The position numbers were made by a program, and so were the translations under genes. Under the pieces are notes generated by a model. The model made no database searches, had not been told where the DNA came from, and saw nothing but the letters and a program-made list of their open reading frames with translations. Shown in pieces: positions 10,955-54,643 of a DNA stretch of 64,000 nt (positions are counted from its first letter, which is position 1; each line of letters begins with the position of its first letter). This DNA is from Maritimibacter sp. DP1N21-5 (lineage in GTDB: Bacteria > Pseudomonadota > Alphaproteobacteria > Rhodobacterales > Rhodobacteraceae): NCBI RefSeq assembly GCF_019218295.1, contig NZ_JAHUZF010000006.1, forward strand, positions 620,001 to 684,000, in the 5' to 3' direction.

Positions 10955-10969
10955 GGCACGACCAAGAGA

Positions 10970-12826: not shown

Positions 12827-12849
12827 GGGGGTCTCCTCCTTTCGGACTG

Positions 12850-12875
12850 AACGCGGGACTATCGGTCCCGGTTCC
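12850..12875 (-). promoter_or_regulatory. GGAAC-N17-CGTT promoter candidate for the 64-aa gene
   Basis: On the minus strand GGAAC (12875-12871) is followed by 17 bases and CGTT (12853-12850). This is the consensus of EcfG-type general stress sigma factors in alphaproteobacteria. The 17-base spacer contains a CGGGAC/GTCCCG inverted repeat. The predicted start near 12844 leaves a leader of roughly 18 bases carrying the Shine-Dalgarno. Confidence 0.55.
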
Positions 12876-12994
12876 GGGCGGGCGATCCGCCGGGCGCGGG
12901 CCCGGCACTGAAAACGGCGGGCGGGATCTTCGGACCCGACCGTTCAAGCGTAAGGCCGGCGAGATCCGGCGTAGACAAAGAACTGGGTAAGCAG

Positions 12995-15013
12995 ATGGCA
13001 GACCTGAAGAAAATCATGATCGACGGGACCGAGGTCGAGGTGGATGGCGCGATGACCATCCTTCAGGCCTGCGAAGTGGCGGGCATCGAGGTTCCGCGCT
13101 TTTGCTACCACGAACGGCTGTCCATCGCCGGCAACTGCCGCATGTGTCTGGTCGAGGTCGTGGGCGGTCCGCCGAAACCCGCCGCCTCCTGCGCGATGCA
13201 GGTCCGCGACCTGCGTCCGGGGCCGGAAGGCCAGGCGCCCGTCGTGAAGACCAACTCGCCCATGGTGAAGAAGGCCCGCGAAGGGGTGATGGAGTTCCTG
13301 CTCATCAACCACCCGCTCGATTGCCCGATCTGCGACCAGGGCGGCGAATGCGACCTGCAGGATCAGGCCATGGCCTATGGCGTGGACTTCTCGCGCTACC
13401 GCGAACCGAAGCGGGCGTCCGAAGACCTGGACCTTGGCCCGCTGGTGTCGACCCAGATGACGCGCTGCATTTCCTGCACCCGCTGCGTGCGCTTCACGAC
13501 CGAGGTCGCGGGCATCCACCAGATGGGCCAGACGGGCCGGGGTGAGGATGCGGAGATCACCTCCTACCTCAACACCACGCTCGACTCGAACCTTCAGGGC
13601 AACATCATCGACCTGTGCCCGGTGGGCGCGCTTACCTCGAAGCCCTATGCCTATACCGCGCGGCCATGGGAACTGACCAAGACCGAAACCATCGACGTGA
13701 TGGACGCGCTCGGCTCGAACATCCGCGTGGACACGAAGGGGCGCGAAGTCATGCGTATCCTGCCGCGCAACCATGACGGCGTGAACGAGGAATGGATTTC
13801 CGACAAGACGCGCTTTGTCTGGGATGGGCTGCGCCGCCAGCGGCTCGACCGCCCCTACGTCCGCGTCGACGGCAAGCTGAAACCCGTGAGCTGGGGCGAG
13901 GCTCTTGCCGCCGCCGCCACGGCGATGAAGGGTCGCAAGGTCGCGGGACTGGTCGGCGATCTGGCCTCGGTGGAGATGGCCTGGTCGCTGAAGACCCTGA
14001 TCGAGGGGCAGGGCGGTTCGGTGGAATGTCGCACGGACGGGTCGAAACTCCCGGCCGGCAACCGCTCGGCCTATGTCGGCACGGCCCGGATCGAACACAT
14101 CGACAGCGCGCAGAACATGATCCTCATCGGCACCAACCCGCGCGACGAAGCGCCGGTTCTGAATGCCCGCATCCGCAAGGCATGGCTGCGCGGGGCCAAG
14201 ATCGCAGGCATCGGCCCGGTCGCGGACCTGACCTATGACGTCATCACGATCGGGAACGACCGCAAGGCGCTCGTCGACCTCGCCGGGATGGACCATTCCG
14301 ACAAGGAGGGTGTCGCCGGCGTGATGGTCGTCGGGCAAGGCGCGATCAGCGAGGCGGACGGCGAGGCTGTTCTGAGCCAGGCGATGAAGGCCGCCGAAGC
14401 TGCGGGCTCCAAGCTACTCATCCTCCACACTGCCGCCTCGCGCGTCGGTGCGATGGACGTCGGCGCGGTGACCGAAGGCGGGCTCGACGCCGCGCTCGAC
14501 GGCGCCGAGGTCGTGTTCAACATGGGTGCGGACGAGGTCGAGATCGGCGCCGGTCCGACGGTCATTTACATGGGCAGTCACGGCGACCGGGGTGCGCATC
14601 GCGCCGACATCATTCTGCCGGGCGCGGCCTATGTCGAGGAAAACGGGCTCTTCGTGAACACCGAGGGCCGTCCGCAGCTCGCCCTGCGTGCCGCCTTCCC
14701 GCCGGGAGAGGCCAAGGAAAACTGGGCCATCCTGCGCGCCTTGTCGGCCGAACTCGGTGCGACGCTCCCTTGGGACAGCCTCGCCGCGCTTCGCCGGGCC
14801 CTCGTCGCCGAAGTGCCGCACCTCGCCAGGATCGACGAGGTGCCGGAGAACGAGTGGCAGGCACTTCCGGTCGCGAAGCCGGGTGACGCGACTTTCCGCA
14901 CCGCGGTGCGCGACCATTACCTCACGAACCCCATCACGCGGGCGTCGCAGGTGATGGCCGAGCTCTCGGCTCAGGCCAAGGCGCGCGCGACCACGGCGGT
15001 CGCCGCAGAGTGA
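12995..15013 (+). CDS. nuoG: NADH-quinone oxidoreductase subunit G
   Basis: The 75-kDa subunit, which carries most of the iron-sulfur wire of the peripheral arm. It is 672 aa. The N-terminal [2Fe-2S] N1b domain has [15 protein letters not shown]. Next comes the N5 motif [14 protein letters not shown] (H-x3-C-x2-C-x5-C), then the N4 ligands in CISCTRC and a later CPVGAL. The C-terminal half is the molybdopterin-oxidoreductase-like domain that has lost its cofactor. It overlaps the lipoprotein gene by 4 bases. Confidence 0.94.
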
Positions 15014-15432
15014 TCCGGCAGGCCGCATATCTGGGCGCCACCGCGCTAGTCCTCATGTCCTGCGGTGAGCAGGCCGAGGTGACGCGCGCGGTGAAAAGCG
15101 CCGAGGCGGCCGTCGCGCCTTTTGATCCCCGCTATCTGGGGATCGGGACGCGGCTGTTGGATGGCGACCTCGTGGCCTTCGACGTGCGCATGACCGGCGC
15201 GCGCAACAATCAGGACGTGGCGGACTATGGCCAGTGTGCGGCGGCGCAATATGCGTTGATCCGCGGCTACGGTTTCGCCCGTCACGTGAGAACGGCTGTG
15301 GACACCCGCGGCGATGTCTGGGAAGGAGACGCCACTTATGTGATCTCCGACGCAATCCCGGACGGTGTGGCCAAGATCGACGCGGAAGTGGCGGTCGCGG
15401 CCTGCAAGGAAAACGGTATACCGACGATCTGA
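15010..15432 (+). CDS. Small lipoprotein of unknown function between nuoG and nuoH
   Basis: 140 aa from a GTG start that overlaps the nuoG stop as GTGA. The N-terminus is a lipoprotein signal with lipobox LMSC (Cys18), so the mature protein should be lipid-anchored in the periplasm or outer membrane. The mature part has two more cysteines (in YGQCAAAQ and AACKENG) that could pair. I do not recognise the family. Unidentified frames between complex I genes are also described in Paracoccus, but homology is not tested here. Confidence 0.72.
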
Positions 15433-15444
15433 GGCAAGACTCTG

Positions 15445-16482
15445 ATGTATGAATTCTTCACGACGACGAACACGGGGATCGCGCTGACGATCGTGGGGCA
15501 GGTGCTCCTGATCGTGGTGCCGCTTCTCGTCGCGCTGGCATTTCTGCTCTACTTCGACCGCAAGGTCTGGGCGGCGGTGCAGCTGCGTCGCGGCCCCAAC
15601 GTGGTGGGCGCCTTTGGTCTGCTGCAATCCTTCGCCGACTTCCTGAAGTATGTGCTGAAGGAAATCGTGGTGCCGGCGGGCGCGGACAAGTTCGTCTTCT
15701 TCCTCGCGCCCATGCTGTCCTTCGTCCTCGCCATGATCGCCTGGTCCGTGATCCCCTTCTCGGACACGGCGGTTCTGGCCGACATCAACGTGGCGATCCT
15801 CTTCGTCTTCGCGGTTTCCTCGCTCGAGGTCTACGGCGTCATCATGGGCGGCTGGGCGTCGAACTCGAAATACCCCTTTCTCGGTTCGCTCCGCTCGGCG
15901 GCGCAGATGATCTCCTACGAGGTCTCGATCGGCCTCATCATCATCGGGGTCGTGCTTTCGACCGGGTCGCTCAACTTCGGTGACATCGTGCGCGCGCAGG
16001 AGGGGGCGGGGATCTTCTCGTGGTACTGGCTCCCGCATTTCCCGATGGTGTTCCTCTTCCTCATCTCGGCCATGGCGGAAACCAACCGCCCGCCCTTCGA
16101 CTTGCCGGAGGCGGAATCCGAACTCGTCGCGGGCTATCAGGTGGAATACTCGTCCACCCCGTTCCTGCTGTTCATGATCGGGGAATACGTAGCCATCGTG
16201 CTCATGTGCGCGCTCGTCTCGATCCTCTTCTTCGGGGGCTGGCTGTCGCCCATTCCGGGCCTGCCCGACGGGATGCTCTGGCTCTTCCTGAAGATCTTCT
16301 TCTTCTTCTTCGTCTTCGCGATGGTGAAGGCGATCACCCCCCGCTACCGCTACGACCAACTGATGCGGATCGGCTGGAAAGTCTTCCTGCCGCTCTCCCT
16401 GATCTGGGTGGTTCTGGTGGCGTTCTTTGCACAATACGGCGCGTTCTGGGGAACCTACGCCCGCTGGACCGTGGGAGGCTGA
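15445..16482 (+). CDS. nuoH: NADH-quinone oxidoreductase subunit H
   Basis: The membrane-arm subunit that seals the quinone chamber against NuoB and NuoD. It is 345 aa with about eight membrane helices and the conserved segments [36 protein letters not shown] and the C-terminal PRYRYDQLM. It starts 12 bases after the lipoprotein gene and is followed at once by nuoI. Confidence 0.95.
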
Positions 16483-16483
16483 C

Positions 16484-16978
16484 ATGGCCAACATCGACTA
16501 CACCCGCGCGGTAAAATACTTCCTGCTGGCTGACTGGATCACCGGCTTCAAGCTGGGTCTGAAGTATTTCTTCAAACCGAAGGCCACGCTGAACTATCCG
16601 CATCAAAAGGGGCCGCTTTCGCCGCGCTTCCGGGGCGAACACGCGCTGCGCCGCTATCCCAACGGGGAAGAGCGCTGCATCGCCTGCAAGCTTTGCGAGG
16701 CGATCTGCCCGGCGCAGGCCATCACCATCGACGCGGAACCCCGTGACGACGGCTCGCGCCGCACCACGCGCTACGACATCGACATGACGAAGTGCATCTA
16801 CTGCGGTTTCTGCCAGGAAGCCTGCCCGGTGGATGCCATCGTCGAGGGCCCGAACTTCGAGTTTGCGACCGAAACCCGCGAGGAGCTGTTCTACGACAAG
16901 CAGAAACTCCTCGACAACGGCGAGCGTTGGGAAGCCGAGATTGCGCGCAATCTCGAGCTTGACGCGCCGTATCGGTAA
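16484..16978 (+). CDS. nuoI: NADH-quinone oxidoreductase subunit I
   Basis: The 23-kDa ferredoxin-like subunit carrying [4Fe-4S] clusters N6a and N6b. It is 164 aa with two CxxCxxCxxxCP motifs, [12 protein letters not shown] and [12 protein letters not shown]. The ATG at 16484 is one base past the nuoH stop region, with GGGAGG just upstream. An open frame starting earlier inside nuoH is not family sequence. Confidence 0.95.
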
Positions 16979-16988
16979 GGGGGCTTCG

Positions 16989-17396
16989 TTGGGCGCATCC
17001 GGCATCTCCGTGTTTCAGGACGACGCATCCCTGGACTGGCTCGACGACTACGTGTCGTCGGGGGCCGGTGCTGTTGCGTCGGCTCTGGACGGGGCGGCGG
17101 CCGTGCCCGTGACCGAATACCTCGACCATCATCAGGGCGCGGCGGCGCGGACGGCGGCGGAAGTCGTGGCCACCGCCAACGGCGACCTGCCCGACGAGAT
17201 CACCCAGGATCAGCTCGCGACCCTCAACACCCATGGGTCCGACGTTCGGGCCATGGCAGGTCTGAAGTCCCGGGCCAAGGCGGCGCTCGACCGGCTGATT
17301 TCAGAAAACTCCGAGCTTCATGAGCTGTGGATGGAAAGCGATGACCAGGCTCGATGGGTCGCCGCGATGAACGACCTGCGCAGGAGGCTTGGATGA
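16989..17396 (+). CDS. DUF4259-like protein
   Basis: 135 aa beginning LGASGISVFQDDASLDWLDDY, which resembles the MGAWG..FENDDALDW start typical of DUF4259 proteins. This match, plus AAGGGGG five bases before it, supports the TTG at 16989. The family has no assigned function. It follows nuoI by 10 bases and overlaps the next gene by 4, so it belongs to the operon. The longer open frame that begins inside nuoI is discarded. Confidence 0.72.
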   Translation: MGASGISVFQDDASLDWLDDYVSSGAGAVASALDGAAAVPVTEYLDHHQGAAARTAAEVVATANGDLPDEITQDQLATLNTHGSDVRAMAGLKSRAKAALDRLISENSELHELWMESDDQARWVAAMNDLRRRLG

Positions 17397-17806
17397 ACGA
17401 TTTCGCCAGAATGTATGCCCAGATGATGGAGCAGGGTGCGGCGATGGTGAAAGCCTTCAACCCGGCGCTCGAGGATTACGTGCCCGAGGGCTTCGACAAG
17501 CTGATGCCGACGATGCCCAAGGACTGGATGGAGGCGATGTTCGGCAACTCCTTCAACAAGGACGGGCTCGACGCGAAGACGCGCCTGATGCTGACGCTTG
17601 GCGGGCTGGTCGCCGTGGGGGCCACCGCCGGTCCCCAGATCAAATACACCGTGCGCCATCTGCTCGAGATGGGAGCCACGCAAAAGGAAGTCGCCGAAGT
17701 CATCTACCAGATGTCGATGCTGGGTGGCATTCCGGCCATGAACAGGGCAATGGAGCTCGCGCAGAGCGTCTTTGCCGAGAAGTCCAATGAGGAGGGGAGC
17801 GCATGA
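17393..17806 (+). CDS. Carboxymuconolactone decarboxylase (AhpD-like) family protein
   Basis: 137 aa, mostly helical, with the CMD-type core around [21 protein letters not shown] and [15 protein letters not shown]. It lacks any CxxC pair, so it is not a peroxidase-type AhpD. AGGAGG at 17382-17387 supports the ATG. It overlaps the DUF4259 gene and nuoJ by 4 bases each (ATGA). The substrate is unknown. Its place between nuoI and nuoJ suggests co-expression with complex I but not a specific task. Confidence 0.78.
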
Positions 17807-18417
17807 GCGTTGCCGATTTCGCATTCTACGCCTTTGGCCTGACCACGCTGGTCGGCGGGCTCTTCACCGTGGTGGCGCGCAACCCGGTCCATTCGGTCCT
17901 CTGGCTGATCACTGCCTTCATCGGCGCGACGGGGCTCTTCGTTCTGCTCGGCGCCGAGTTCGTGGCGATGCTTCTCATGATCGTCTACGTGGGCGCGGTC
18001 GCGGTGCTTTTCCTCTTCGTCGTCATGATGCTCGACGTGGACTTCGCCGAGCTGAAGGCGGGTATGGCAAAATACATGCCGATCGCGCTTCTGATCGGGG
18101 TGATCCTGCTTTTGCAACTCGGGATGATCTTCGGCACCTGGACCATGTCTGACGGCGTCGATGCGGCCCGGCAGGCGGTGACCCCCGCCGTGACCGAGGT
18201 CGAGAACACCGCGGCACTCGGGATGCTCATCTATGACGACTACATCCTGCTGTTCCAACTCGCAGGCCTGATCCTGCTGGTCGCGATGATCGGGGCGATC
18301 ACGCTCACCCTGCGTCACCGCAAGAACATCAAGCGTCAGGACGTGCTCGCGCAGATGTACCGCGACCCGGCCAAGGCGCTGGAGATGGTCGACGTGAAAC
18401 CGGGGCAGGGTCTGTGA
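17803..18417 (+). CDS. nuoJ: NADH-quinone oxidoreductase subunit J
   Basis: A membrane-arm subunit of 204 aa with five predicted helices. It shows the family segments [13 protein letters not shown] and [27 protein letters not shown], the latter containing the flexible pi-bulge helix. It overlaps the CMD-family gene before it and the secreted-protein gene after it by 4 bases each. Confidence 0.95.
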
Positions 18418-18800
18418 TCCGCGTCGCCGCCATATCCCTTGCCCTTGCGGTCCTGCCGCAGGCAACGCTGGCAGAGGCCCCGCCGCTGCCAAGCTGTCAG
18501 GAAGGCGGCTTCGAATGGCTCTTGGGTTCCACTTACCCCAACGGCATGGTTTCGGCCGAGCGGATTTCCCGAAACGGGGCGTCCACCGCCTATCTCCTGT
18601 CGTGTCAGGCAGGCAGGGCGGTAGAGGCGCAACAGAACGGTGGTCAGGCTTATGCCTTCTGGGACCTCATGGATGGCATGATGCAATCGAGCGAAACCTA
18701 CAGCTTCGCTGACCTCGCCAAGCTGTCGCGCGAAGCGGGCTGGTCCGCCAACGTCGTGAATTTAGACAAGGGGACCTGCATCTGCGGGCTGTCGTACTGA
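18414..18800 (+). CDS. Secreted four-cysteine protein, copy 1
   Basis: 128 aa from a GTG that overlaps the nuoJ stop. It has a signal peptide (residues 1-20, ending ATLA) and then a mature domain of about 108 residues with four cysteines: one near the new N-terminus, one in [11 protein letters not shown], and two in the terminal GTCICGL. It is a paralogue of the next gene, with the same cysteine layout and the shared DLA/ELA-helix-KG.C.C ending. It is probably periplasmic. The family is unknown to me. Confidence 0.72.
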
Positions 18801-19159
18801 TGATGAAACCGGGACACCTCCTGATCGCTGCTGCACTCGTCGTCGCACCCGTCACGGTGCAGGCCGCCAACTGCACCGATGGGACGAACAGCTACACCGC
18901 CATCGAGCGCGTGAACCCGAATGTGGTCTACGCGGAAAACGGCGGCACCGCGATCATCGCGGTCTGTTCGATGGATATGGCGGTCGAGGCGACAGATCCC
19001 GGTGGGGCCGAATACCCGGCGCGGGACTTCGCAGCGGGTCTCAATCCGAACAACGCGCAATACGATCTGACCGAACTCGCCAGCCTCATGCGCAGCATGG
19101 GACTGGCCGCACAGACGACACCTTTCTCGAGCAAGGGCTGCGTCTGCGCAACGAACTGA
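18800..19159 (+). CDS. Secreted four-cysteine protein, copy 2
   Basis: 119 aa, starting at the ATG that shares one base with the previous stop (a second ATG follows at once). Signal peptide about 1-22 (VTVQA), then a mature domain with cysteines in ANCTDG, in AVCSMDMAVEA, and in the terminal KGCVCATN. The layout matches copy 1. The CxC at the C-terminus could form disulfides or bind metal. No function can be read. It lies 88 bases before nuoK. Confidence 0.72.
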   Translation: MMKPGHLLIAAALVVAPVTVQAANCTDGTNSYTAIERVNPNVVYAENGGTAIIAVCSMDMAVEATDPGGAEYPARDFAAGLNPNNAQYDLTELASLMRSMGLAAQTTPFSSKGCVCATN

Positions 19160-19160
19160 C

Positions 19161-19207
19161 GGGCGCACGCGCCCGAATGACATGGCCCCGGCACACGCCA
19201 TGGGGCC
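19161..19207 (+). promoter_or_regulatory. Two tandem hairpins upstream of nuoK
   Basis: GGGCGC/GCGCCC (19161-19174, two-base loop) is followed by GGCCCC/GGGGCC (19184-19207, twelve-base loop). They sit in the longest non-coding gap between nuoJ and nuoK. They could slow read-through, set an RNA processing site, or be incidental to the high GC content. Confidence 0.35.
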
Positions 19208-19247
19208 GAACAAAGACTAACCAAGGGCAAAGGCCCAGAGGGACACG

Positions 19248-19553
19248 ATGGTAGGACTTGAACATTACCTAGGGCTGGCGGGGGCACTCTTCGTCATCGG
19301 CATCTTCGGTCTTTTCCTGAACCGCAAGAACGTCATCATCCTGCTCATGTCGATCGAACTGATGCTTCTGTCGGTCAACATCAACTTCGTGGCCTTCTCG
19401 TCCTATCTCGGCGATCTGGTCGGGCAGGTCTTCACCCTTTTCGTGCTCACCGTGGCCGCAGCCGAGGCCGCCATCGGCCTCGCCATCCTGGTGAGCTTCT
19501 TCCGCAACCGCGGCACCATCGCGGTCGAAGACGTCAACGTGATGAAAGGCTGA
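19248..19553 (+). CDS. nuoK: NADH-quinone oxidoreductase subunit K
   Basis: A 101-aa membrane-arm subunit with three helices. The conserved acidic residues of the proton path are in [15 protein letters not shown] and in [14 protein letters not shown]. It has the usual length for the family. The upstream region has GGGCAAAGG and GAGGGACACG, weak ribosome-site-like sequences. It is followed by nuoL after 6 bases. Confidence 0.95.
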
Positions 19554-19559
19554 TCAGAG

Positions 19560-21656
19560 ATGCTGACCATCATCCTCTTCGCCCCGCTGGTGGGCGCCAT
19601 CATCGCGGGCTTCGGCCATCGGATCATCGGCGACAAGGGCGCGCAGGTCACGACGACCGCGCTTCTGTTCCTCGCCGCGGCCCTGTCCTGGATCGTCTTC
19701 CTGACGCATGACCCGGCGGTCGTTCAGCACGTTCCGGTGCTGCGCTGGGTGGAAAGCGGGAGCCTCTCGACCGACTGGTCGATCCGGCTCGACCGTCTGA
19801 CCTCGATCATGCTGATCGTGGTGACGACGGTGTCGTCGCTCGTGCACCTCTACTCCATGGGCTACATGGCCCATGACCCCGAGTTCGAGGGTGTGAGCTA
19901 TCGTCCCCGGTTCTTCGCCTACCTCAGCTTCTTCACCTTCGCGATGCTGATGCTGGTGACATCGGACAACCTGCTTCAGATGTTCTTCGGCTGGGAAGGG
20001 GTGGGGGTCGCTTCCTATCTGCTGATCGGCTTCTACTACAAGAAGCCCTCGGCCAATGCCGCCGCGATCAAGGCTTTCGTGGTCAACCGCGTCGGTGACT
20101 TCGGCTTTGCGCTGGGGATCTTCGGCCTGTTCCTCCTGACGGACTCGATCCGTTTCGACGATGTGTTCGCCGAAACCGCGCGCCTTGCGGAAACCGATAT
20201 CCATTTCCTCTGGCAGAACTGGAACGCGGCGAACCTGCTGGCCTTCCTGCTCTTCATCGGGGCTATGGGGAAATCGGCGCAGCTCTTCCTGCACACATGG
20301 CTTCCCGACGCGATGGAAGGCCCGACCCCGGTCTCCGCGCTCATCCACGCGGCGACCATGGTGACGGCGGGGGTCTTCCTCGTCTGCCGCATGTCGCCGC
20401 TGATAGAATATGCGCCCCAAGCCCAGACGATCATCGTCGCCATCGGCGCGGCCACCGCCTTCTTCGCGGCGACCGTCGGTCTCGTGCAGAACGACATCAA
20501 GCGCGTCATCGCCTATTCGACCTGTTCGCAGCTCGGCTACATGTTCGTGGCCGCCGGTGTGGGCGCCTATCCGGTCGCCATGTTCCACCTGCTGACCCAC
20601 GCCTTCTTCAAGGCGATGCTCTTCCTCGGGGCCGGTTCCGTGATCCACGGGATGCACCACGAACAGGACATGCGGAACTATGGCGGGCTGCGCAAGAAAC
20701 TCCCGCTGACCTTCTGGGCCATGCTGATCGGCACGCTCGCCATCACCGGCGTCGGGATCCCGCTGACCGCCATCGGGTTCGCCGGCTTCCTGTCCAAGGA
20801 TGCGATCATCGAGGTTGCCTATGCCGGGACCAACGGCGGTGTCGCCTTCTGGCTTCTCGTTGTGGCGGCGCTCTTCACGAGCTTTTACTCCTGGCGGCTC
20901 ATGTTCCTGACTTTCTGGGGCAAGCCGCGTGGCGACAAGCACACCCACGAACATGCCCATGAAAGCCCCGCCGTCATGACGATCCCGCTCGGCGTTCTCG
21001 CCGTGGGCGCGATCTTCTCGGGCATGGTGTTCTACAACCAGTTCTTCTACGACCACGACCGGATGAATGCCTTCTTCGGGCTTCCGGAACATCACGTGTC
21101 GGCCGAGGAAAGCCACGGCGAAGAAGCCGCTGCCGCCGAGGTGGACGCGGCCGGAGCGGGCGAAGAGGCTGCGGACACCCATGCGGTGGCCGAGGACCAC
21201 GCGCCGCAGGGGGCCGTGTTCTTCGCACCGGACAACACGGTCATCGACGACGCGCACCACGCGCCGGTGTGGGTGAAGCTCTCGCCCTTCATCGCGATGT
21301 TGCTCGGGCTCGGAACGGCCTATCTGTTCTACATCGTGAACCCGACGCTGCCCAAGCGTCTGGCCGCGACGCAGCCGCATCTCTACCAGTTCCTGCTCAA
21401 CAAGTGGTACTTCGACGAGATCTACGACTTCCTCTTCGTCCGGTCCGCCAAGGCCTTCGGCCGCTTCCTGTGGAAGCGGGGTGACGGGGCGACCATCGAC
21501 GGGGCGATCAACGGGCTCTCCATGGGCGTCGTCCCGTGGTTCACCCGCCTCGCGGGCCGCTGGCAGTCCGGCTACCTCTTCACCTACGCCTTCGCGATGG
21601 TGCTCGGCATCGTCGTCTTCGTGACCATCATGACCCTGACCGGCGGTGCGAACTAA
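19560..21656 (+). CDS. nuoL: NADH-quinone oxidoreductase subunit L
   Basis: The distal antiporter-like proton-pumping subunit, 698 aa, with about 16 helices plus the long lateral helix. The core is typical ([62 protein letters not shown]). Between about residues 460 and 570 there is a long insert rich in His, Glu and Ala, including HTHEHAHE and a run of acidic residues, placed before the final helices. It overlaps nuoM by one base. Confidence 0.94.
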
Positions 21657-23203: not shown

Positions 23204-23213
23204 GGACAGAGAG

Positions 23214-24650: not shown

Positions 24651-24674
24651 TCCGGTCAGGAACACCTCATGCGG

Positions 24675-24700
24675 CACCCGGTCCCCACTTGGGCCGGGTG
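24675..24700 (+). terminator. Hairpin between nuoN and birA
   Basis: CACCCGG at 24675-24681 pairs with CCGGGTG at 24694-24700, with an inner CCC/GGG pairing. It is followed by TCGGCGTTT. It could partly terminate the nuo transcript, leaving birA-coaX-RNase J expressed by read-through or from an unseen promoter. Confidence 0.45.
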
Positions 24701-24722
24701 TCGGCGTTTCACGGAGGCTGAG

Positions 24723-25481
24723 ATGGCAAACGACTGGCCGCAGGGATACGGGTATCTGCCGCTCGACACCGTGGATTCGACGCTGGACGAGGCCGCCCGG
24801 CGGTTCGACGGCCTCGCGGGGCCGACCTGGATCACCGCGAGACGTCAGACCAAGGCGCGCGGACGGCGGGGCCGGGCCTGGGCCAACCCCGAAGGCAATT
24901 TCGCCGGAACCTTGGTCCTGCCGAAAGTGGCCGATCCGGCCATGGCGGCGCTTCGCAGCTTCGTGACCGCCGTGGCCTTGGACGAAGCCTTCGTGGCACT
25001 CACCGGACGGAGCGAGGCCTTCGCGCTCAAATGGCCCAACGACGTGCTCCTGAACGGCGGCAAGGTCGCGGGGATCCTGCTGGAGAGCGTCACCCGGCAG
25101 GGCCGCCTCGCGGGTCTTTCCATCGGGATCGGGGTCAACCTCGCCCATGCGCCCGCACCGGCGTCGCTCGAACCCGGCGCGGTCGCTCCCGTGTCGCTGG
25201 GAGAGGCGACGGGTATCACCGTCACGCCCGAGGATTTCCTCGAAGCGCTGGCGCCGGCCTTCGCGCGGCGCGAGCACCAGTTCGTCACCTATGGCTTCGC
25301 GCCAATCCGCGAGGCGTGGCTCGCCCGTGCGGCCCGCATCGGCGAGGTCGTGACGGCGCGGCTTCCGGCTGAGGAGATCACCGGGACCTTCCGGACGGTG
25401 GACGAGGCCGGTCAACTTGTCCTATCAACGGCCGGCGGGGATCGCCGCATCGCGGCCGGCGACGTGTTCTTTCAGGGCTGA
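24723..25481 (+). CDS. birA: Biotin--[acetyl-CoA-carboxylase] ligase, monofunctional
   Basis: Attaches biotin to carboxylase biotinyl domains, such as the one in MccA at the start of this window. It is 252 aa. It lacks the N-terminal DNA-binding domain of bifunctional BirA and starts directly at the catalytic fold. Motifs are GRRGRAWANPEGNF and KWPNDVLLNGGKVAGILLE, and a short C-terminal SH3-like domain follows. The ATG at 24723 is chosen; the frame is open to 24669. Confidence 0.9.
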   Translation: MANDWPQGYGYLPLDTVDSTLDEAARRFDGLAGPTWITARRQTKARGRRGRAWANPEGNFAGTLVLPKVADPAMAALRSFVTAVALDEAFVALTGRSEAFALKWPNDVLLNGGKVAGILLESVTRQGRLAGLSIGIGVNLAHAPAPASLEPGAVAPVSLGEATGITVTPEDFLEALAPAFARREHQFVTYGFAPIREAWLARAARIGEVVTARLPAEEITGTFRTVDEAGQLVLSTAGGDRRIAAGDVFFQG

Positions 25482-25492
25482 GCGGGGACCAC

Positions 25493-26272
25493 ATGCTTCT
25501 GACCATCGACTGCGGCAACACCAATACCGTCTTCACGCTCTGGGATGGCGAGACGAACGTCTGCACGCTGCGCACCTCGACCGCGCATCAGCGGACGGCG
25601 GACAGCTATTGGGTCTGGTTCTCGACGCTGATCAAGCATCACGGCATCACGCCCGACGTGTCGGGCGTCATCATCTCGTCCACGGTGCCGCGCGTCGTCT
25701 TCAACCTTCGTGTCTTTACCGACCGCTATTTCAATCTGCGTCCGCTGGTGGTGGGCAAGCCCGAATGCCTGCTCCCCGTCGACGTGCGGGTCGACGCGGG
25801 CACGGCGGTGGGGCCGGACAGGCTCGTCAACACCGTGGCGGGCTTCAACCTCTGCGGGGGCGACCTGATCATCGTGGATTTCGGCACCGCGACGACCTTC
25901 GACGTGGCCGACAGCGACGGGGCCTATATCGGGGGCGTAATCGCTCCCGGCGTGAACCTGTCGCTCGAAGCGCTGCACATGGCTGCCGCCGCCTTGCCTC
26001 ATGTGGACATCACGCATCCAGACAAGGTGATCGGGACGAACACCATCGCCTGCATGCAATCGGGGATTTTCTGGGGCTATGTGGGCCTCATCAAGGAAAT
26101 CTCCTCTCGCATCATGGAAGAACATGGGCGCAAGATGAAAGTGATCGGAACCGGGGGCCTCGCCCCCTTGTTCCAGTTGCACGCACCGGTCTTCGACCAC
26201 TTCGAGGACAGCCTCACCATGCAGGGGCTCAAGATCATATACGAATACAACAAGGCACAGGGTAACGTATGA
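25493..26272 (+). CDS. coaX: Type III pantothenate kinase
   Basis: Phosphorylates pantothenate in the first step of coenzyme A synthesis. It is 259 aa with the ASKHA-fold phosphate loop DCGNTNT at 6-12, the VDAGTAVGPDRLVN segment, and DFGTATTFDV. It lies 11 bases after birA and overlaps the RNase J start by 4 bases. The birA-coaX-rnj order behind nuoN is, as I recall, common in Rhodobacterales. Confidence 0.92.
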   Translation: MLLTIDCGNTNTVFTLWDGETNVCTLRTSTAHQRTADSYWVWFSTLIKHHGITPDVSGVIISSTVPRVVFNLRVFTDRYFNLRPLVVGKPECLLPVDVRVDAGTAVGPDRLVNTVAGFNLCGGDLIIVDFGTATTFDVADSDGAYIGGVIAPGVNLSLEALHMAAAALPHVDITHPDKVIGTNTIACMQSGIFWGYVGLIKEISSRIMEEHGRKMKVIGTGGLAPLFQLHAPVFDHFEDSLTMQGLKIIYEYNKAQGNV

Positions 26273-27933
26273 GCAAGGACCGACTGATCTATCTCCCCTT
26301 GGGTGGCGCCGGGGAGATCGGGATGAACGCCTATGTCTACGGCTACGGTGCGCCGGGGAAGGAGCGCCTCATCCTCGTCGATCTGGGCGTGACCTTTCCG
26401 GACATGGAAACGACGCCGGGTGTCGACCTGATCATGCCCGACGTGGCCTGGCTCGTGGAGAACCGGGACCGGCTGGAGGCGATCTTTATCACGCATGCGC
26501 ATGAGGATCACGTGGGCGCCATCGGGCGGCTGTGGGAGCACCTTCGGGTGCCGGTCTATGCCCGTGTGTTCACCGCCCATCACGCCGCGCGGAAGATGGA
26601 AGAGGCCGGCCAGAACCCGGACGAGGTCCAGGTCGTCGGGAGCTGGCCCGAGGTCGTGACGGCAGGACCCTTCAAGGTGTCCTTCGTCCCGATTTCCCAT
26701 TCCATCCCCGAAAGCGCCGGGCTGGTCATCGACACGCCGGCTGGCCGGGTCGCTCATACCGGCGACTTCAAGATCGACCCCGAACCGGGAGTGGGCGAGG
26801 CCTTCGACGAGGAGCTCTGGAAGCAGGCAACGCAGGGTCGGGTTAAGGCGCTCATGTGCGATTCCACCAACGTCTTCTCCATGAAGCCGGGGCGGAGCGA
26901 GGCGGGCCTCGTGTCCGAGATCACCAAGCTCGTGGAAAACGCGCCGCATATGGTTGTGGCGACGACCTTCGCTTCGAACGTCGCACGGGTCCGCACGCTG
27001 GCCGAGGCGGGGCGGGCCGCTGGCCGCTCGGTCTGTCTTCTGGGGCGGGCGATGCGCCGGATGATCGAGGCTTCGGTCGAAACCGGCGTGCTCACCGACT
27101 TCCCCAAGACGATCACGCCCGAGGATGCGCGCGACATCCCGCGCGAGAACCTGATGCTGATTGTCACCGGGTCGCAGGGCGAACGCCGCGCTGCCACGGC
27201 GCAGCTGTCGCGGGGCAAATACCTTGGCCTCGAGATGGCCGAGGGCGACACCTTCCTCTTTTCCTCCAAGGTCATTCCGGGAAACGAGCGCGGCGTGATC
27301 CGGATCATGAACGCCTTCTCGGAAATGGGTGTCGATCTGGTCGCGGACGATGACCGCTATCACGTCTCGGGCCACGCGAACCGCCCGGACCTTGAACGGA
27401 TGCATCGCATCGTGAACCCCGAGGTCGTTGTGCCGATGCACGGCGAGCACCGTCACCTGCGTGAACATGCCAAGGTCGCCAAGGAGAACGGCTTCCAGTC
27501 CATCGTCGTCGTGAACGGTGCGGTCGTGGACCTGACGGGCTCCGCGCCGCATGTGGTCGAACATGTGGAAACGGATCGCACGTATCTGGACGGCTCCAAA
27601 CTGATCGGGGCGCTGGACGGGATCGTGCGCGACCGTATCCGCATGGCGCTTAACGGCCATGTGCTGGTGAACGTCATCATGGAGGACGACGCGCCTCTTG
27701 GAGAACCCTGGGTCGAGCTGATGGGGCTGGCCGAGATCGGCAACTCCAAGGCGCCGCTGGTCGATGTTCTGGAGGAGGACCTCAATCAGTTCCTCATGCG
27801 GGCCAAGGATCGCACCCTCGCCGATGACGACGCGCTGGAAGAGGAGCTGCGCCGGATCGTGCGCAAGTCGGCGCAGGACGAGATCGGCAAGAAGCCCGAG
27901 GTTACGGTCGTCATCTCCCGGCTGGAGGCCTGA
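26269..27933 (+). CDS. rnj: Ribonuclease J
   Basis: A metallo-beta-lactamase/beta-CASP ribonuclease with endo- and 5'-exonuclease activity in RNA maturation and decay. It is 554 aa. The metal-binding motif HAHEDH is at 76-81, with later SHSIPES and HTGDFKIDPEP, the beta-CASP region, and HVSGHANRPDL near the end of the core. It is translated from an ATGA overlap with coaX. A convergent HD-domain gene ends only 6 bases downstream with no clear terminator. Confidence 0.93.
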   Translation: MSKDRLIYLPLGGAGEIGMNAYVYGYGAPGKERLILVDLGVTFPDMETTPGVDLIMPDVAWLVENRDRLEAIFITHAHEDHVGAIGRLWEHLRVPVYARVFTAHHAARKMEEAGQNPDEVQVVGSWPEVVTAGPFKVSFVPISHSIPESAGLVIDTPAGRVAHTGDFKIDPEPGVGEAFDEELWKQATQGRVKALMCDSTNVFSMKPGRSEAGLVSEITKLVENAPHMVVATTFASNVARVRTLAEAGRAAGRSVCLLGRAMRRMIEASVETGVLTDFPKTITPEDARDIPRENLMLIVTGSQGERRAATAQLSRGKYLGLEMAEGDTFLFSSKVIPGNERGVIRIMNAFSEMGVDLVADDDRYHVSGHANRPDLERMHRIVNPEVVVPMHGEHRHLREHAKVAKENGFQSIVVVNGAVVDLTGSAPHVVEHVETDRTYLDGSKLIGALDGIVRDRIRMALNGHVLVNVIMEDDAPLGEPWVELMGLAEIGNSKAPLVDVLEEDLNQFLMRAKDRTLADDDALEEELRRIVRKSAQDEIGKKPEVTVVISRLEA

Positions 27934-27939
27934 CGTGGA

Positions 27940-28500
27940 TCAGGCGCGGGCTTCGATCCGCGCCACCACCTCGGCGATCCGGTCCGAGAGTGGGCCTGGG
28001 CGCAGCGCGCAAAGCCGGTCGGCAAGCGCGCGGTAATACCAGAGTGTGCCGTCCCGGCCGGTCGTGAAACGGTCGAACACTGCGGGTCCGCAAGCCAGCA
28101 AGTCGACGTAGATCGTCGTGGCATTGTGCAGTTTGTCGCAAGAGGTGACGAGCAGCGCGTCCTCGCCCTTGGTGGCGAGGCTCGCGAGATAGCCGTCCTT
28201 GCGCGCCTGCCACGGCACGCTGGACTGGTCCACGGCATCCGAACAGGCGAGCACGATGTCGGCCACGCGGTCGCCAAACGCGGCGCGGATCAGGTCGGCG
28301 GTCGCCTGTCCACCTTGATCCTCGACCGCGTCGTGAAGCAGGCCCGCGATGGCCTGATCCTCGTCGCCGCCGTTTTCGAGGACGAGGGCGGAAACCGCCA
28401 TGAGGTGAGAGAGATAGGGCACGTTCGAAACCTTGCGCTGGTGGCTCCGATGGAGCCGCGCGGCAAGGGCGAACGCATCGTCAAAACGATGTGTCAGCAT
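27940..28500 (-). CDS. HD-domain hydrolase, SpoT/MESH1-like
   Basis: 186 aa with the HD-superfamily metal residues His32, His56-Asp57 and the Glu60-Asp61 pair (HLMAVSALV, LLHDAVEDQ), then a helical tail with CDKLHN. It resembles the hydrolase domain of SpoT and small ppGpp hydrolases but has no synthetase, TGS or ACT domain. Action on ppGpp is plausible, and other phosphohydrolase substrates are equally possible. It runs convergently to RNase J. Confidence 0.78.
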   Translation of the reverse strand: MLTHRFDDAFALAARLHRSHQRKVSNVPYLSHLMAVSALVLENGGDEDQAIAGLLHDAVEDQGGQATADLIRAAFGDRVADIVLACSDAVDQSSVPWQARKDGYLASLATKGEDALLVTSCDKLHNATTIYVDLLACGPAVFDRFTTGRDGTLWYYRALADRLCALRPGPLSDRIAEVVARIEARA

Positions 28501-28573
28501 GGGTTATCCAGTCATGTTGGGAGATGAGCGAAACGCTCACTCGAATGATGGAAGCACCCCGCACAAACGTCAA

Positions 28574-28591
28574 CCCCGCCTTTCGGCGGGG
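28574..28591 (-). terminator. Terminator of the DEAD-box helicase gene
   Basis: CCCCGCC at 28574-28580 pairs with GGCGGGG at 28585-28591 around a TTTC loop. It lies 30 bases past the helicase stop on the minus strand, before the HD-domain gene. Confidence 0.65.
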
Positions 28592-28620
28592 CTTTGTCGT
28601 GTCGCACCCGTAGGTTTGGC

Positions 28621-30111
28621 TCAGTCCGACATCCGCTCTTCAAAGCTCTTGGCGATGAAGCCGGGCAGGTGATCGCCCATGCCGGTGGGGGTATTGCCGC
28701 CCCGGTCGCCACCACGGCTTCCGCGATCCCGGCGGTCGTTCCGGTCGCCGCGGTCGCCCCGGTCACTGCGCGACCGGCTGCTGCGCTCTTCGCGCGGCTG
28801 ATCGGCAACCTCGTCCTTCGGTGCCTTCGGCGCTTCGGCTTTCGTCTCTGCCTTGGCCTCGAGCTTGTCGCTGCGCTCGGACGACTTGCGCGAGCGCGAG
28901 GGCTTCTTGTCGCTCCGCTCGGATTTGCTGCCCCGGTCGCCATCGTCCGAGGCGGGTGCATCGCCCAGCGGGTTCGCAAGCAGGGGGATCTCCTTCTCGA
29001 TCAGCCGGAGCACGGCCTCGAGGTTCTTCTCGTCGCGCGGTTCGCAGATCATTACCGCATGGCCCTTGCGCCCGGCGCGGCCCGTGCGCCCGATCCGGTG
29101 GACGTAGTCCTCGGCATGGCTGGGCACGTCATAGTTGAATACATGGCTCACATTGGGAATGTCGAGCCCGCGCGCGGCCACGTCCGAGGCGCAGAGGAAG
29201 CGGATCGTGCCGTCGCGGAAGCCCTGAAGAACTTCCATCCGCTTGGACTGGTCCAGATCGCCGTGGATCGGCTGCGCGTTGTAGCCGTATTTCTGCAAGG
29301 ACTTCGCGGTGATATCCACGTCGGTCTTGCGGTTGCAGAAGATGATCGCGTTGGTGCAAGCCTCGCCCTCGGCGTCGATCATCGCGCGCAGAAGGGCGCG
29401 TTTCTCGGTCGCGGCGCTGTCGCGGCGCTTGGGTTTGAACTTGACCATGCCCTGCGTGATCGTGTCCGAGGTCGTCGCCTGCCGCGAAACCTCGATGCGG
29501 GCGGGATTGGACAGGAAGGTGTTGGTGATCCGCTCGATCTCGGGCGCCATCGTGGCCGAGAAGAAAAGCGTCTGCCGCGTGAAAGGCACAAGCCCGAAGA
29601 TACGTTCGATGTCCGGGATGAAGCCCATGTCGAGCATGCGGTCGGCTTCGTCCACCACCATGATCTGCACGCCGGTGAGGAGCAGTTTGCCGCGTTCGAA
29701 ATGGTCCAGAAGCCGGCCCGGCGTCGCGATCAGCACGTCGACACCCCGATCGATCAGCGCGTCCTGCTCCTTGAAGCTCACGCCGCCGATGAGGAGCGCC
29801 TTGGTCAGCTTCACGTTCTTGGCGTAGACATCGAAGTTCTCGGCCACCTGCGCGGCAAGCTCCCGCGTCGGGCAAAGCACGAGCGAGCGCGGCATGCGTG
29901 CACGGGCGCGGCCACGCGCGAGCGCCGTGATCATGGGAAGCGTGAAGGAAGCGGTCTTGCCGGTCCCGGTCTGGGCGATGCCCAGCACGTCGCGGCCCTC
30001 GAGCGCGGGAGGAATGGCGCCGGCCTGGATCGGGGTCGGGGTTTCGTATCCCGCTTCCTCGACGGCTTTGAGGACTTTGGGGTTCAGGGACAGGTCGGAG
30101 AATTTGGTCAA
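28621..30111 (-). CDS. rhlE: DEAD-box ATP-dependent RNA helicase, RhlE-like
   Basis: 496 aa. The helicase core carries AQTGTGKT (motif I), PTRELA (Ia), VDEADRMLDMGF (II, DEAD), FFSATM (III), and HRIGRTGRAGRKG (VI). Residues from about 390 on form a low-complexity tail rich in Arg, Asp, Ser and Gly. The start is read as TTG at 30111, with AAAGG six bases before it; the family begins (M)TKFSDL. An in-frame ATG at 30153 is the alternative. A likely role is RNA remodelling in ribosome assembly or decay. Confidence 0.88.
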   Translation of the reverse strand: MTKFSDLSLNPKVLKAVEEAGYETPTPIQAGAIPPALEGRDVLGIAQTGTGKTASFTLPMITALARGRARARMPRSLVLCPTRELAAQVAENFDVYAKNVKLTKALLIGGVSFKEQDALIDRGVDVLIATPGRLLDHFERGKLLLTGVQIMVVDEADRMLDMGFIPDIERIFGLVPFTRQTLFFSATMAPEIERITNTFLSNPARIEVSRQATTSDTITQGMVKFKPKRRDSAATEKRALLRAMIDAEGEACTNAIIFCNRKTDVDITAKSLQKYGYNAQPIHGDLDQSKRMEVLQGFRDGTIRFLCASDVAARGLDIPNVSHVFNYDVPSHAEDYVHRIGRTGRAGRKGHAVMICEPRDEKNLEAVLRLIEKEIPLLANPLGDAPASDDGDRGSKSERSDKKPSRSRKSSERSDKLEAKAETKAEAPKAPKDEVADQPREERSSRSRSDRGDRGDRNDRRDRGSRGGDRGGNTPTGMGDHLPGFIAKSFEERMSD

Positions 30112-30204
30112 TGGATGCCTTTCGCGTGACAGTTGCGGCGCTTGTGGCCGCATTGTCCAGCGCGGCCCCGTTCGACCGGATTGCCGAACACCTTGTGGGC
30201 AAAG

Positions 30205-30233
30205 GCCATACGCTCCCTTGCGGAAAAGGTCAA
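30205..30233 (-). promoter_or_regulatory. Housekeeping promoter candidate for the DEAD-box helicase
   Basis: On the minus strand TTGACC (30233-30228), 17 bases, TATGGC (30210-30205). This is a good sigma-70-type match and gives a leader of about 87 bases before the TTG start. Long leaders are common for RNA helicases with cold or auto-regulation, but no conserved element was identified. Confidence 0.5.
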
Positions 30234-30242
30234 GAAAACAGG

Positions 30243-30267
30243 GGAACAGCCGGGACCGGCCCGCGTT
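30243..30267 (+). promoter_or_regulatory. GGAAC-N16-CGTT promoter candidate for the OsmC gene
   Basis: GGAAC at 30243-30247, 16 bases, CGTT at 30264-30267, ending 32 bases before the OsmC ATG with AAAGGAG in between. This matches the EcfG general-stress promoter. It lies back to back with the helicase promoter. Confidence 0.6.
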
Positions 30268-30299
30268 GGATGGGAGAAACCAGGACAAAGGAGTGCACA

Positions 30300-30719
30300 A
30301 TGATCCGCAAACATGGGTCTGCCGTCTGGCAGGGTGGCCTGCAGGACGGCACCGGAACCGTATCGACACAGTCGGGCGTTCTGGACGCCGTGCAATATGG
30401 CTTCAACAAGCGGTTCGAGGACGAACCGGGGTCGAATCCCGAGGAACTCATCGGCGCGGCGCATGCGGCCTGCTTCTCGATGGCGCTCTCCAACATCCTG
30501 GGCGACGACGACATCGTGCCCGAACGGATCGAGACCCGCTCGACCATCTCGCTCGACATGTCGGACGGGCCCAAGATCGTGAAGGCGCATCTCGACGTGA
30601 CCATCAAGGCGCCCGGCGACGAGGACAAGATCATGGAAGCGGCGAAGAAGGCCGAGCAGGGATGCCCGGTCAGCCAGCTCCTGAACTGCGAGATCACGAT
30701 GGACGCGAAAGTGCTCTAG
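30300..30719 (+). CDS. osmC: OsmC-family peroxiredoxin
   Basis: 139 aa. Members of this family reduce organic hydroperoxides with a cysteine pair. Here the pair is in HAACFSMAL and GCPVSQLLN. The N-terminal beta region reads IRKHGSAVWQGG. AAAGGAG at 30287-30293 supports the ATG at 30300. The open frame upstream back to 30111 is discarded. Osmotic or oxidative stress induction would agree with the promoter in front of it. Confidence 0.9.
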   Translation: MIRKHGSAVWQGGLQDGTGTVSTQSGVLDAVQYGFNKRFEDEPGSNPEELIGAAHAACFSMALSNILGDDDIVPERIETRSTISLDMSDGPKIVKAHLDVTIKAPGDEDKIMEAAKKAEQGCPVSQLLNCEITMDAKVL

Positions 30720-30756
30720 GCATTTGAAGCGATGCGATCCTGCCTGAAAACCCGAT

Positions 30757-30780
30757 CCCCGCCGGTGCTGCCGAGCGGGG
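30757..30780. terminator. Hairpin after the OsmC gene
   Basis: CCCCGCCGG pairs with CCGAGCGGGG with one bulged A, around a TGCTG loop. It sits between two convergent genes and could serve both. Confidence 0.5.
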
Positions 30781-30805
30781 CTCCCTCGGTTGGGAGAAGA
30801 GGGCT

Positions 30806-31282
30806 TCAGCTTTCGGGCAGGTCGTCGATCATGTCGGGGTGGCCCTTGGCCATCGCCTGCACGCGCGCCCAGAAAAGCGAATTTCCATGACCCTCGGGCG
30901 CCAGCGCGCCAAGGGCCATCGCGAAGCGCGGGGACGTGGTGGCCGCCTCGATCCTTTCGAGGAGGTCGGGCCCATGTGTCGCAAACAACTCGGTCATCGG
31001 TCCGGCGGCGATGAGCGACAGGTCTTGCGGTGCCTGCGCCTCGGCCACGAGCGCCTCCTGCACCGCGAAGGACAGGTCCGGGTTTTCAGACGCAAGGGAC
31101 GAGGCGAGCACCGCTGTCCAGACCTCCGGATGCCCTTCGAAGTCCTCGTCCTCGTCCGTGTCGCGCAGAAACATGAGGAAACGCTGGGCGAGGCGGTCGA
31201 TGGGCAGGTCGCCCGAAGGCAAGGCGTCCTCAGGCTGGTCCAAAGCCTTGGCGACGAGCGGGCGGGGAATGGCTTGGGTCAT
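30806..31282 (-). CDS. Conserved hypothetical protein, possibly DUF6869-like
   Basis: 158 aa, acidic and mostly helical, with no membrane segment or signal. The pattern of short helices with SLIAAGPMTELFATHGP recalls the DUF6869 family from memory, but I cannot verify it. It lies 43 bases beyond the prfC start-to-stop arrangement on the same strand, so the two could share a transcript. No function can be given. Confidence 0.65.
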   Translation of the reverse strand: MTQAIPRPLVAKALDQPEDALPSGDLPIDRLAQRFLMFLRDTDEDEDFEGHPEVWTAVLASSLASENPDLSFAVQEALVAEAQAPQDLSLIAAGPMTELFATHGPDLLERIEAATTSPRFAMALGALAPEGHGNSLFWARVQAMAKGHPDMIDDLPES

Positions 31283-31325
31283 GCGGGCCTGCCTACCATG
31301 GCTCGCCCGGGCCGCAAAGTGCCGC

Positions 31326-32939
31326 TCACTCCCCGTGGAGTTCCTTGGTCGCCGTGAGCTTCAGCGAGGGGTAATCGCGCTCCACTCGGTCAATGTCCCA
31401 CTGAAGGCGCGTGAGGAACACCGGGTCGCCGTCGTTGTCGTGGCCGATGTGCTGCTTGTTGGCGTTGATCAGCTTTTCGAGGTCCGCCTTGGGTCCCGAA
31501 ATCCAGCGGGCCGAAGTGAACTGCGACGCCTCGAAGCGCACCGGGATCCCGTATTCCAGCTCGATCCGGGAGGCCAGAACCTCGAACTGAAGCTGGCCGA
31601 CGACGCCCACGATAAAGCCCGACCCGATGTTCGGCTTGAACACCTTGGCCGCGCCTTCCTCGGCGAATTGCATGAGCGCCTTTTCCAGATGCTTGGCCTT
31701 CATCGGATCGGTTGCGCGCACGCCTTGCAGCAATTCCGGCGCAAACGACGGGATGCCGGTCACACGTAGTGCTTCGCCTTCGGTCAGCGTGTCGCCGATG
31801 CGCAACTGCCCGTGGTTCGGGATGCCGATGATGTCACCCGCCCAGGCCTCTTCCGCGAGTTCCCGGTCCGAAGCGAGGAACATCACCGGGTTGGTAATCG
31901 CCATCGGCTTTTTCGACCGCACGTGAAGCAGCTTCATTCCGCGTTCGAAATGGCCAGATGCCAGACGCACGAAGGCCACGCGGTCGCGGTGTTTCGGGTC
32001 CATGTTGGCCTGCACCTTGAAGACGAAGCCGGCCACCTTGGTCTCGTCCGGCGCGATCTGTCGCGGCTCGGCGCTCTGCGGCTGCGGCTCGGGACCATAG
32101 GTCGCGATGCCGTTCATCAGTTCCTTCACGCCGAAGGAGTTGATCGCGGAGCCGAACCAGATCGGCGTCATTTGCCCGTTCATTACTTCTTCGGGGTCAA
32201 GCGCGGGCAGCAGCTCACGCGCCATCTCGATCTCTTCGCGGAGTTTCTCCAGCAGATGCGGGGGGACATGCTGGGCCAGCTTCGGGTCGTCCAGCCCCTC
32301 GATGGAGATTGACTCGGCGACCCGGTTGCGGTCCGCTCGGTCCATGAGTTCGAGCCGGTCGCGCAAGAGGTCGTAACAGCCGAGAAACTCGCTCCCCACC
32401 CCGATGGGCCAGCTTGCCGGCGTGACGTGGATCGCGAGCATCTCCTGGATTTCGTCGATGATCTCGAAGGTGTCGCGGCTCTCGCGGTCCATCTTGTTGC
32501 AGAAGGTCAGGATCGGCAGGTCCCGCATCCGGCAGACCTCGAAGAGTTTCTGGGTCTGGCTCTCCACGCCTTTGGCCCCGTCGATCACCATGACGGCCGC
32601 GTCGACGGCAGTGAGCGTCCGGTAGGTGTCTTCCGAAAAGTCCGAGTGGCCGGGCGTGTCGACGAGGTTGAAGCGGAACTTGCCGAAGTCGAAGGACATG
32701 GCCGAGGCCGAAACCGAGATGCCCCGGTCCTTTTCCATCTGCATGAAGTCCGACCGCGTGCGCCGCGCTTCGCCCTTCGCGCGCACCTGTCCCGCCATCT
32801 GGATTGCGCCGCCGAACAGCAGGAACTTTTCCGTCAGCGTCGTCTTGCCCGCGTCCGGGTGCGAAATGATCGCAAAGGTTCGGCGCCGGGCGATTTCCGG
32901 GGGCAGGGCGGGGCGGTTCGTGGCGGCTTGATCGAGCAT
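31326..32939 (-). CDS. prfC: Peptide chain release factor 3
   Basis: A GTPase that removes RF1 and RF2 from the ribosome after termination. It is 537 aa with the G1 motif HPDAGKTTLTEKFL, the G3 motif DTPGHSDFSEDT and the G4 motif NKMDRE. It then has the EF-G-like domains II and III. It has the usual length for RF3. The divergent 90-aa gene upstream has its own promoter candidate in the 98-base spacer. Confidence 0.93.
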   Translation of the reverse strand: MLDQAATNRPALPPEIARRRTFAIISHPDAGKTTLTEKFLLFGGAIQMAGQVRAKGEARRTRSDFMQMEKDRGISVSASAMSFDFGKFRFNLVDTPGHSDFSEDTYRTLTAVDAAVMVIDGAKGVESQTQKLFEVCRMRDLPILTFCNKMDRESRDTFEIIDEIQEMLAIHVTPASWPIGVGSEFLGCYDLLRDRLELMDRADRNRVAESISIEGLDDPKLAQHVPPHLLEKLREEIEMARELLPALDPEEVMNGQMTPIWFGSAINSFGVKELMNGIATYGPEPQPQSAEPRQIAPDETKVAGFVFKVQANMDPKHRDRVAFVRLASGHFERGMKLLHVRSKKPMAITNPVMFLASDRELAEEAWAGDIIGIPNHGQLRIGDTLTEGEALRVTGIPSFAPELLQGVRATDPMKAKHLEKALMQFAEEGAAKVFKPNIGSGFIVGVVGQLQFEVLASRIELEYGIPVRFEASQFTSARWISGPKADLEKLINANKQHIGHDNDGDPVFLTRLQWDIDRVERDYPSLKLTATKELHGE

Positions 32940-32988
32940 GGCGGGGATATATGGCGGGGACGGGGCATCGTCCAGCGGGACTTGACGC

Positions 32989-33014
32989 GGAACGCGGCGA
33001 CAGTGCCGGGCGTT
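32989..33014 (+). promoter_or_regulatory. GGAAC-N17-CGTT promoter candidate for the 90-aa gene
   Basis: GGAAC at 32989-32993, 17 bases, CGTT at 33011-33014, ending 23 bases before the ATG at 33038. AAAGGAG follows at 33024-33030. The geometry is the same as in front of the 64-aa gene at 12826. Confidence 0.6.
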
Positions 33015-54594: not shown

Positions 54595-54643
54595 GATGTC
54601 ATAACGCCCGGAACCGAAACGAGTTGCCAGTCATTTTCGCACC

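Follow-up and report, generated by a model that had tools for sequence, protein, structure and literature searches.

Predicted EcfG-type promoters before three small genes of Maritimibacter sp. DP1N21-5 and the general-stress regulon to which they point

The window analysed here is a 64,000-nucleotide stretch of Maritimibacter sp. DP1N21-5 (positions 620001-684000 of contig C6 in a genome of 3.86 Mb and 7 contigs), and it carries three copies of the gapped motif GGAAC-N16/17-CGTT, each before a small gene (Table 1). The genes encode a charged protein of 64 amino acids (aa), an OsmC-family peroxiredoxin and a 90-aa protein of the DUF7218 family. A first-pass annotation, made by eye from the sequence, had placed the motifs with spacers of 17, 16 and 17 bases, and an exact pattern scan of the 64 kb returned the same coordinates and spacers, with these three as the only exact matches. 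Counted from the 3′ end of each site, the ATG of the respective gene follows after 23, 32 and 23 bases, again as annotated, and the strong Shine-Dalgarno sequences described there are present as AAAGGAG starting 13-16 bases before each of the three ATGs. The three sites are very likely -35/-10 promoters read by RNA polymerase with a general-stress sigma factor of the EcfG type (ECF15, a group of extracytoplasmic function, ECF, sigma factors).

Table 1. Predicted promoter sites and associated genes in the 64-kb window (positions are those of the window).
Feature	Position	Strand	Details
EcfG-type promoter (predicted), 64-aa gene	12850..12875	-	GGAAC-N17-CGTT
64-aa charged protein	12632..12826	-	ATG at 12826
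EcfG-type promoter (predicted), osmC	30243..30267	+	GGAAC-N16-CGTT
OsmC-family peroxiredoxin, 139 aa	30300..30719	+	ATG at 30300; PF02566; TIGR03562 over cut-off
EcfG-type promoter (predicted), DUF7218 gene	32989..33014	+	GGAAC-N17-CGTT
90-aa DUF7218 protein, C-terminal Rho_N-like helical stretch	33038..33310	+	ATG at 33038; profile match
Candidate weaker divergent pair, overlapping	54603..54635	both strands	one mismatch each

The search for phyR, nepR and ecfG homologues that the first-pass annotation had proposed found all three encoded in the genome. At about 84.4-88.1 kb of contig C3, phyR is divergent from a nepR-ecfG-HWE kinase series, which is followed by csbD. EcfG (C3:86448-86975) matches NF009198 with 315 bits against a cut-off of 270, the adjoining NepR (C3:87013-87117) reaches 53.9 bits against a Pfam cut-off of 25.7, and the divergently encoded PhyR, with sigma-like domains and a receiver, matches NF006623 with 360.5 bits against 240. 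The kinase of this locus is recognised as HWE/HisKA_2 by Pfam, while its match to the NCBIfam PhyK equivalog model stays below the cut-off. Two exact copies of the motif, overlapping and divergent, lie between phyR and nepR. A genome of the same genus (G229) carries this module too, with 75% identity over 3747 bases. That genome has a single NepR and a single EcfG over the cut-off, and its phyR-nepR gap also holds overlapping divergent sites, each one base off. About 2 kb beyond the phyR of C3, at 10044-13787 of the stretch L033 (G000 C3:80001-98000, G000 being the genome studied here), are genes that by sequence resemble ectA, ectB, ectC and the aspartokinase gene of ectoine biosynthesis.

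One alternative is that a pattern of nine bases with a gap simply recurs by chance in a GC-rich genome, and the number of sites in the window does little against it, as shuffled windows hold 1.14 on average and at least three in 8 of 100 shuffles. What speaks against chance is position, all three sites lying at promoter distance before genes. For the genome as a whole, sites were classed against same-strand coding sequences predicted by a purpose-written gene finder, for which the window served as training sequence. This classed 100 of 102 sites, and 91 were kept once the 9 at C6 below position 208,509 (a foreign block, discussed below) had been dropped; among 71 matches to the reversed pattern, which served as controls, 59 were placed and 54 were kept after dropping 5 from the same region. 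Outside the foreign block, 57/91 sites are intergenic compared with 12/54 controls. Sites that are intergenic and end at most 60 bases before a same-strand coding sequence number 36/91 compared with 4/54 controls (Fisher p ~1e-5), and by the same 60-base criterion the mirror orientation accounts for 5/91 sites and 1/54 controls. The enrichment just upstream of genes for which the first-pass annotation proposed a check is thus present in this genome. A spacer of 17 bases occurs in 27 of the 36 upstream sites and in 26 of the 55 remaining ones.

Several counts weigh against an EcfG regulon. Apart from the weak count in the window, 55/91 genome sites lie outside the 60 bases upstream of a gene, the whole-genome count is in modest excess of the reversed control (102 against 71), and the reversed control outnumbers the motif in over half of the genomes of the family (Rhodobacteraceae). 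Given that last result, raw genome-wide counts are bound to base composition; they were rejected as proof and kept solely for a contrast between genomes with and without NepR. The median motif/control ratio is 0.80 in 111 NepR-positive and 0.52 in 137 NepR-negative genomes (p ~5e-9, kinship ignored), and it shows wide composition effects across the family genomes.

The genes downstream of the 36 upstream sites include many that are typical of stress responses. Pfam was run on 32 of them, with phyR and the three window genes scanned separately, and the families found include CsbD, DUF883_C, Transgly_assoc, PLDc_N, YrhK, DUF4112, hemerythrin, DAGK/YegS-like kinase, PhoH, pyridoxamine-oxidase-like, DJ-1/PfpI, YetF, Hva1_TUDOR and aldehyde dehydrogenase, among others. 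Other EcfG regulons hold csbD, osmC, ku-ligD and general stress protein 26, according to the available text of two papers (PMC7083833, PMC6599016). Against this, Pfam finds nothing at E 0.01 for 10 of the 32 genes and only a match below the cut-off for another; a few look metabolic (COX2, acyl-CoA dehydrogenase, phytanoyl-CoA dioxygenase), and the sites before these three may be chance hits. The suggestion that the motif precedes stress genes stands for many downstream genes and not for all. Taken together, the sequence data predict that the EcfG regulon of the host comprises about 36-40 units, the three genes of the window among them; three motifs spotted by eye have in this way led to a predicted stress regulon in a family with a patchy system. 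Of 248 family genomes, 111 have a NepR match (109 of them over the Pfam cut-off), which bears out the patchy distribution given in the first-pass annotation.

Conservation of the sites also argues against chance. Positions 6.8-47.0 kb of the window are matched by collinear pieces of G229 at 72-85% identity, and a 70.8-kb stretch of that genome, which contains this collinear part with the three genes, has five exact sites, three intergenic and two inside coding sequence. The three intergenic ones stand before the same three genes, 23 bases ahead of the 64-aa gene, 37 ahead of osmC and 23 ahead of the DUF7218 gene, despite changes in the spacer bases. The 64-aa protein falls into none of the Pfam and NCBIfam families at E 0.001 and occurs in 3/248 family genomes (the present one, G229 and G002), all of them NepR-positive; of the three loci, our own included, two carry the strict site and the third a GGTT variant.

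For OsmC, 52 loci were scanned, with a match of at least E 1e-29 required and one copy counted in each of G153 and G066. A strict site precedes OsmC in 16/43 loci of NepR-positive genomes, our own included, compared with 0/9 in NepR-negative genomes (p=0.026; 15/42 compared with 0/9 without our own locus, p=0.031). If any base is allowed before GTT, the figures become 23/43 and 0/9 (p=0.003, also without our own locus). Over all 52 loci the 16 strict sites compare with one antisense and one reversed match. For DUF7218, 40 loci were scanned, leaving out a contig-edge match (G212) and partial C-terminal matches, and 22 of them, our own included, have a strict site (16/30 plus 6/10; 21/39 without our own), compared with 4/40 antisense and 0/40 reversed matches. 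The NepR-negative group in these comparisons is small, with nine OsmC loci and one DUF7218 locus.

On the other side, 27 of the 43 OsmC loci in NepR-positive genomes are without the strict site and 20/43 without the relaxed one, 18/40 DUF7218 loci have no strict site, and one of the 16 strict OsmC sites lies 277 bases upstream of its gene; one strict DUF7218 site is likewise distant, at 257 bases. Since most OsmC loci in NepR-positive genomes lack the strict site, osmC is not a universal member of the regulon. Position and conservation are significant and number alone is not; independent tests support the assignment of the three sites to EcfG, and an origin of all three by chance appears very improbable.

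The motif is of a known kind. The first-pass annotation had named GGAAC-N16/17-CGTT as the EcfG consensus, and GGAAC-N16-CGTT is published for Rhizobium etli and Sphingopyxis in the available text of the respective papers (PMC3892343, PMC7083833). Like the PhyR-NepR-EcfG (ECF15) systems of other Alphaproteobacteria, that of our host has phyR divergent from nepR-ecfG, an HWE kinase, sites within the module, the GGAAC-N16/17-CGTT motif and stress genes downstream; it is an ordinary EcfG regulon of known type. It differs in its spacer, which is mostly N17 at the upstream sites of the host (27/36) and N16 in the accessible parts of the R. etli and Sphingopyxis granuli papers (PMC3892343, PMC7083833). 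The motif described for Sphingomonas melonis is wider, GGAAC-N17-20-GTT, in the text available to us (PMC6599016), and the OsmC and DUF7218 sites of other family members have N16 in 23/36 cases, so the N17 of the host is a shade of the known motif and not a new one. In S. granuli TFA, csbD and osmC are direct EcfG targets with GGAAC-N16-CGTT, as far as the accessible text goes, and an OsmC peroxiredoxin is described as EcfG-dependent in Sphingomonas in the part of that paper at hand (PMC7083833, PMC6599016). Strain TFA differs in having two EcfG paralogues (PMC7083833, available text), whereas the host has one over the cut-off outside the foreign block.

The first-pass annotation considered a clear regulon in Rhodobacterales notable. 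The family is indeed patchy, but a PhyR-NepR-EcfG locus of this order has already been studied in Rhodobacter sphaeroides (RSP_1274/RSP_1272), which resembles the host system in having a single PhyR in its usual gene context and differs in that PhyR has a specialised role in membrane stress (PMC5830050, available text). The string GGAAC is absent from the main text of that paper. That study is also relevant to a second alternative, in which the sites are real promoters used chiefly by a different sigma factor of the ECF or heat-shock type, such as RpoE (with ChrR) or RpoH. Further sigma factors of our genome do score against the EcfG model, though not up to its cut-off, and in R. sphaeroides, where PhyR is specialised, the responses to singlet oxygen and heat belong to RpoE and RpoH factors (PMC5830050, available text). 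What argues for EcfG instead is that the motif is the one published for EcfG in R. etli and Sphingopyxis, that sites lie between phyR and nepR themselves, and that none of the nine NepR-negative OsmC loci scanned has one. We consider a different principal sigma factor most unlikely.

The preferred reading, an EcfG regulon, is thus supported by the module, by the enrichment and by the conservation, and none of the contrary results for which tests were made occurred. The presence and placement of the sites, the gene content, the conservation, the absence of OsmC sites from the scanned NepR-negative genomes and the module were all computed here. By analogy with other Alphaproteobacteria, stress would activate the HWE kinase, PhyR would become phosphorylated and take NepR off EcfG, and the freed EcfG would then transcribe a regulon to which the three window genes belong. 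For our host we infer EcfG binding, the inducing stress and the roles of the 64-aa and DUF7218 proteins.

In the assembly as a whole, NepR, PhyR and EcfG each occur twice over the cut-off, the second EcfG copy being located at C6:192497. A host with two complete EcfG modules sharing a regulon was initially taken at face value and then rejected, because the C6 module locus is 100.000% identical over 16,741 bases to contig 3 of Tateyamaria omphalii DP5N21-5 (NZ_JAHVHT010000003.1). Collinear pieces of this locus are present in two other Tateyamaria genomes at 75-91% identity. Four further pieces, within C6:45,200-139,790, are also 100% identical to and collinear with T. omphalii; all pieces that were compared, lying between C6:45,200 and 208,508, show full identity. 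The match continues as far as C6:208,508 and breaks off at a run of 43 G, beyond which the sequences differ; two-colour sequencers are known to produce long stretches of G as an artefact. The prfC gene of the window is 79% identical to that of T. omphalii, which indicates that the window does not come from that species. Very probably, C6 up to 208,508 is foreign DNA joined in assembly, either as a chimeric contig or through cross-contamination, and a reported assembly contamination of 4.41% fits this reading. A very recent transfer of the block into the host is improbable, the join at the 43-G run arguing against it. With a single NepR and a single EcfG in G229 as well, a host with two modules has very little probability. 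As the apparent second module is very probably that of another species, the number of paralogues of stress-response genes should be verified wherever it is taken from an assembly of this kind.

The DUF7218 protein seems to accompany the response across the family. The 90-aa protein matches the Pfam family DUF7218 with 82.9 bits and Rho_N with 22.8 bits, below the cut-off of 24.9. Its AlphaFold model is of modest confidence (pLDDT, the predicted local distance difference test, 62.6), and Rho structures account for 4/7 matches in a fold search, three of them at a root-mean-square deviation of 1.1 Å over 30-35 columns, all with E of at least 4 and not significant. DUF7218 matches occur in 42/248 family genomes, and 41 of these 42 are NepR-positive (p ~1e-15, counting genomes and ignoring kinship). 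One of the 42 matches covers the C-terminal part only, and full-length matches are NepR-positive in 40/41 cases; the NepR-negative genome with DUF7218 is 86% complete. A class-wide search found DUF7218 in 2/289 genomes, our own and one other, also NepR-positive, a number too small to test the association beyond the family.

Of 80 named phyR loci, picked by similarity to T. omphalii PhyR, 18 have DUF7218 within ~10.6 kb of phyR, and in 5 of these 18 a strict site lies directly upstream of it. In several Marivita-type loci DUF7218 appears close behind another reading frame, so the promoter may sit further upstream. The word DUF7218 was not found in the literature searched, nor did the protein turn up there as an EcfG target, and "Rho termination factor" was not found in the EcfG/PhyR papers checked, which are part of the matching literature. 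From its distribution, we infer that a dedicated effector role of DUF7218 is probable. On the fuller proposal our judgement is evenly balanced: DUF7218 would be a dedicated effector of PhyR-NepR-EcfG in this family, kept only with the response, driven by an EcfG promoter and often encoded near phyR, and its Rho_N-like C-terminal stretch may serve to bind nucleic acid, RNA or DNA, during stress. DUF7218 is an uncharacterised protein family whose presence almost implies a PhyR-NepR-EcfG system.

The 64-aa gene lies between nuoF-like and nuoG-like genes, on the opposite strand to them (window 11217-15013), and these surroundings are collinear in G229. The spacers of the three window sites contain inverted repeats with arms of 6, 5 and 4 bases, where the mean for upstream sites is ~3.1. 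An inverted repeat in the spacer was considered as a promoter feature and rejected: arms average 3.06 at upstream sites compared with 2.74 in shuffles, and 2.91 at other sites compared with 2.66, and this excess is alike in both groups.

The statement that the other upstream regions of the window lack the motif holds for exact matches and fails for one divergent pair with a mismatch in each member. The pair consists of GGAAC-N17-CATT on the plus strand (54610-54635) and GCAAC-N16-CGTT on the minus strand (54603-54627), between an Exo_endo_phos gene (minus) and a gene for a 268-aa protein without a Pfam match (plus), and it is merely 8 bases ahead of the predicted starts. On sequence grounds it may, speculatively, represent EcfG-like divergent promoters; both variant boxes are known from stress promoters of Sphingopyxis, according to the available text (PMC7083833).

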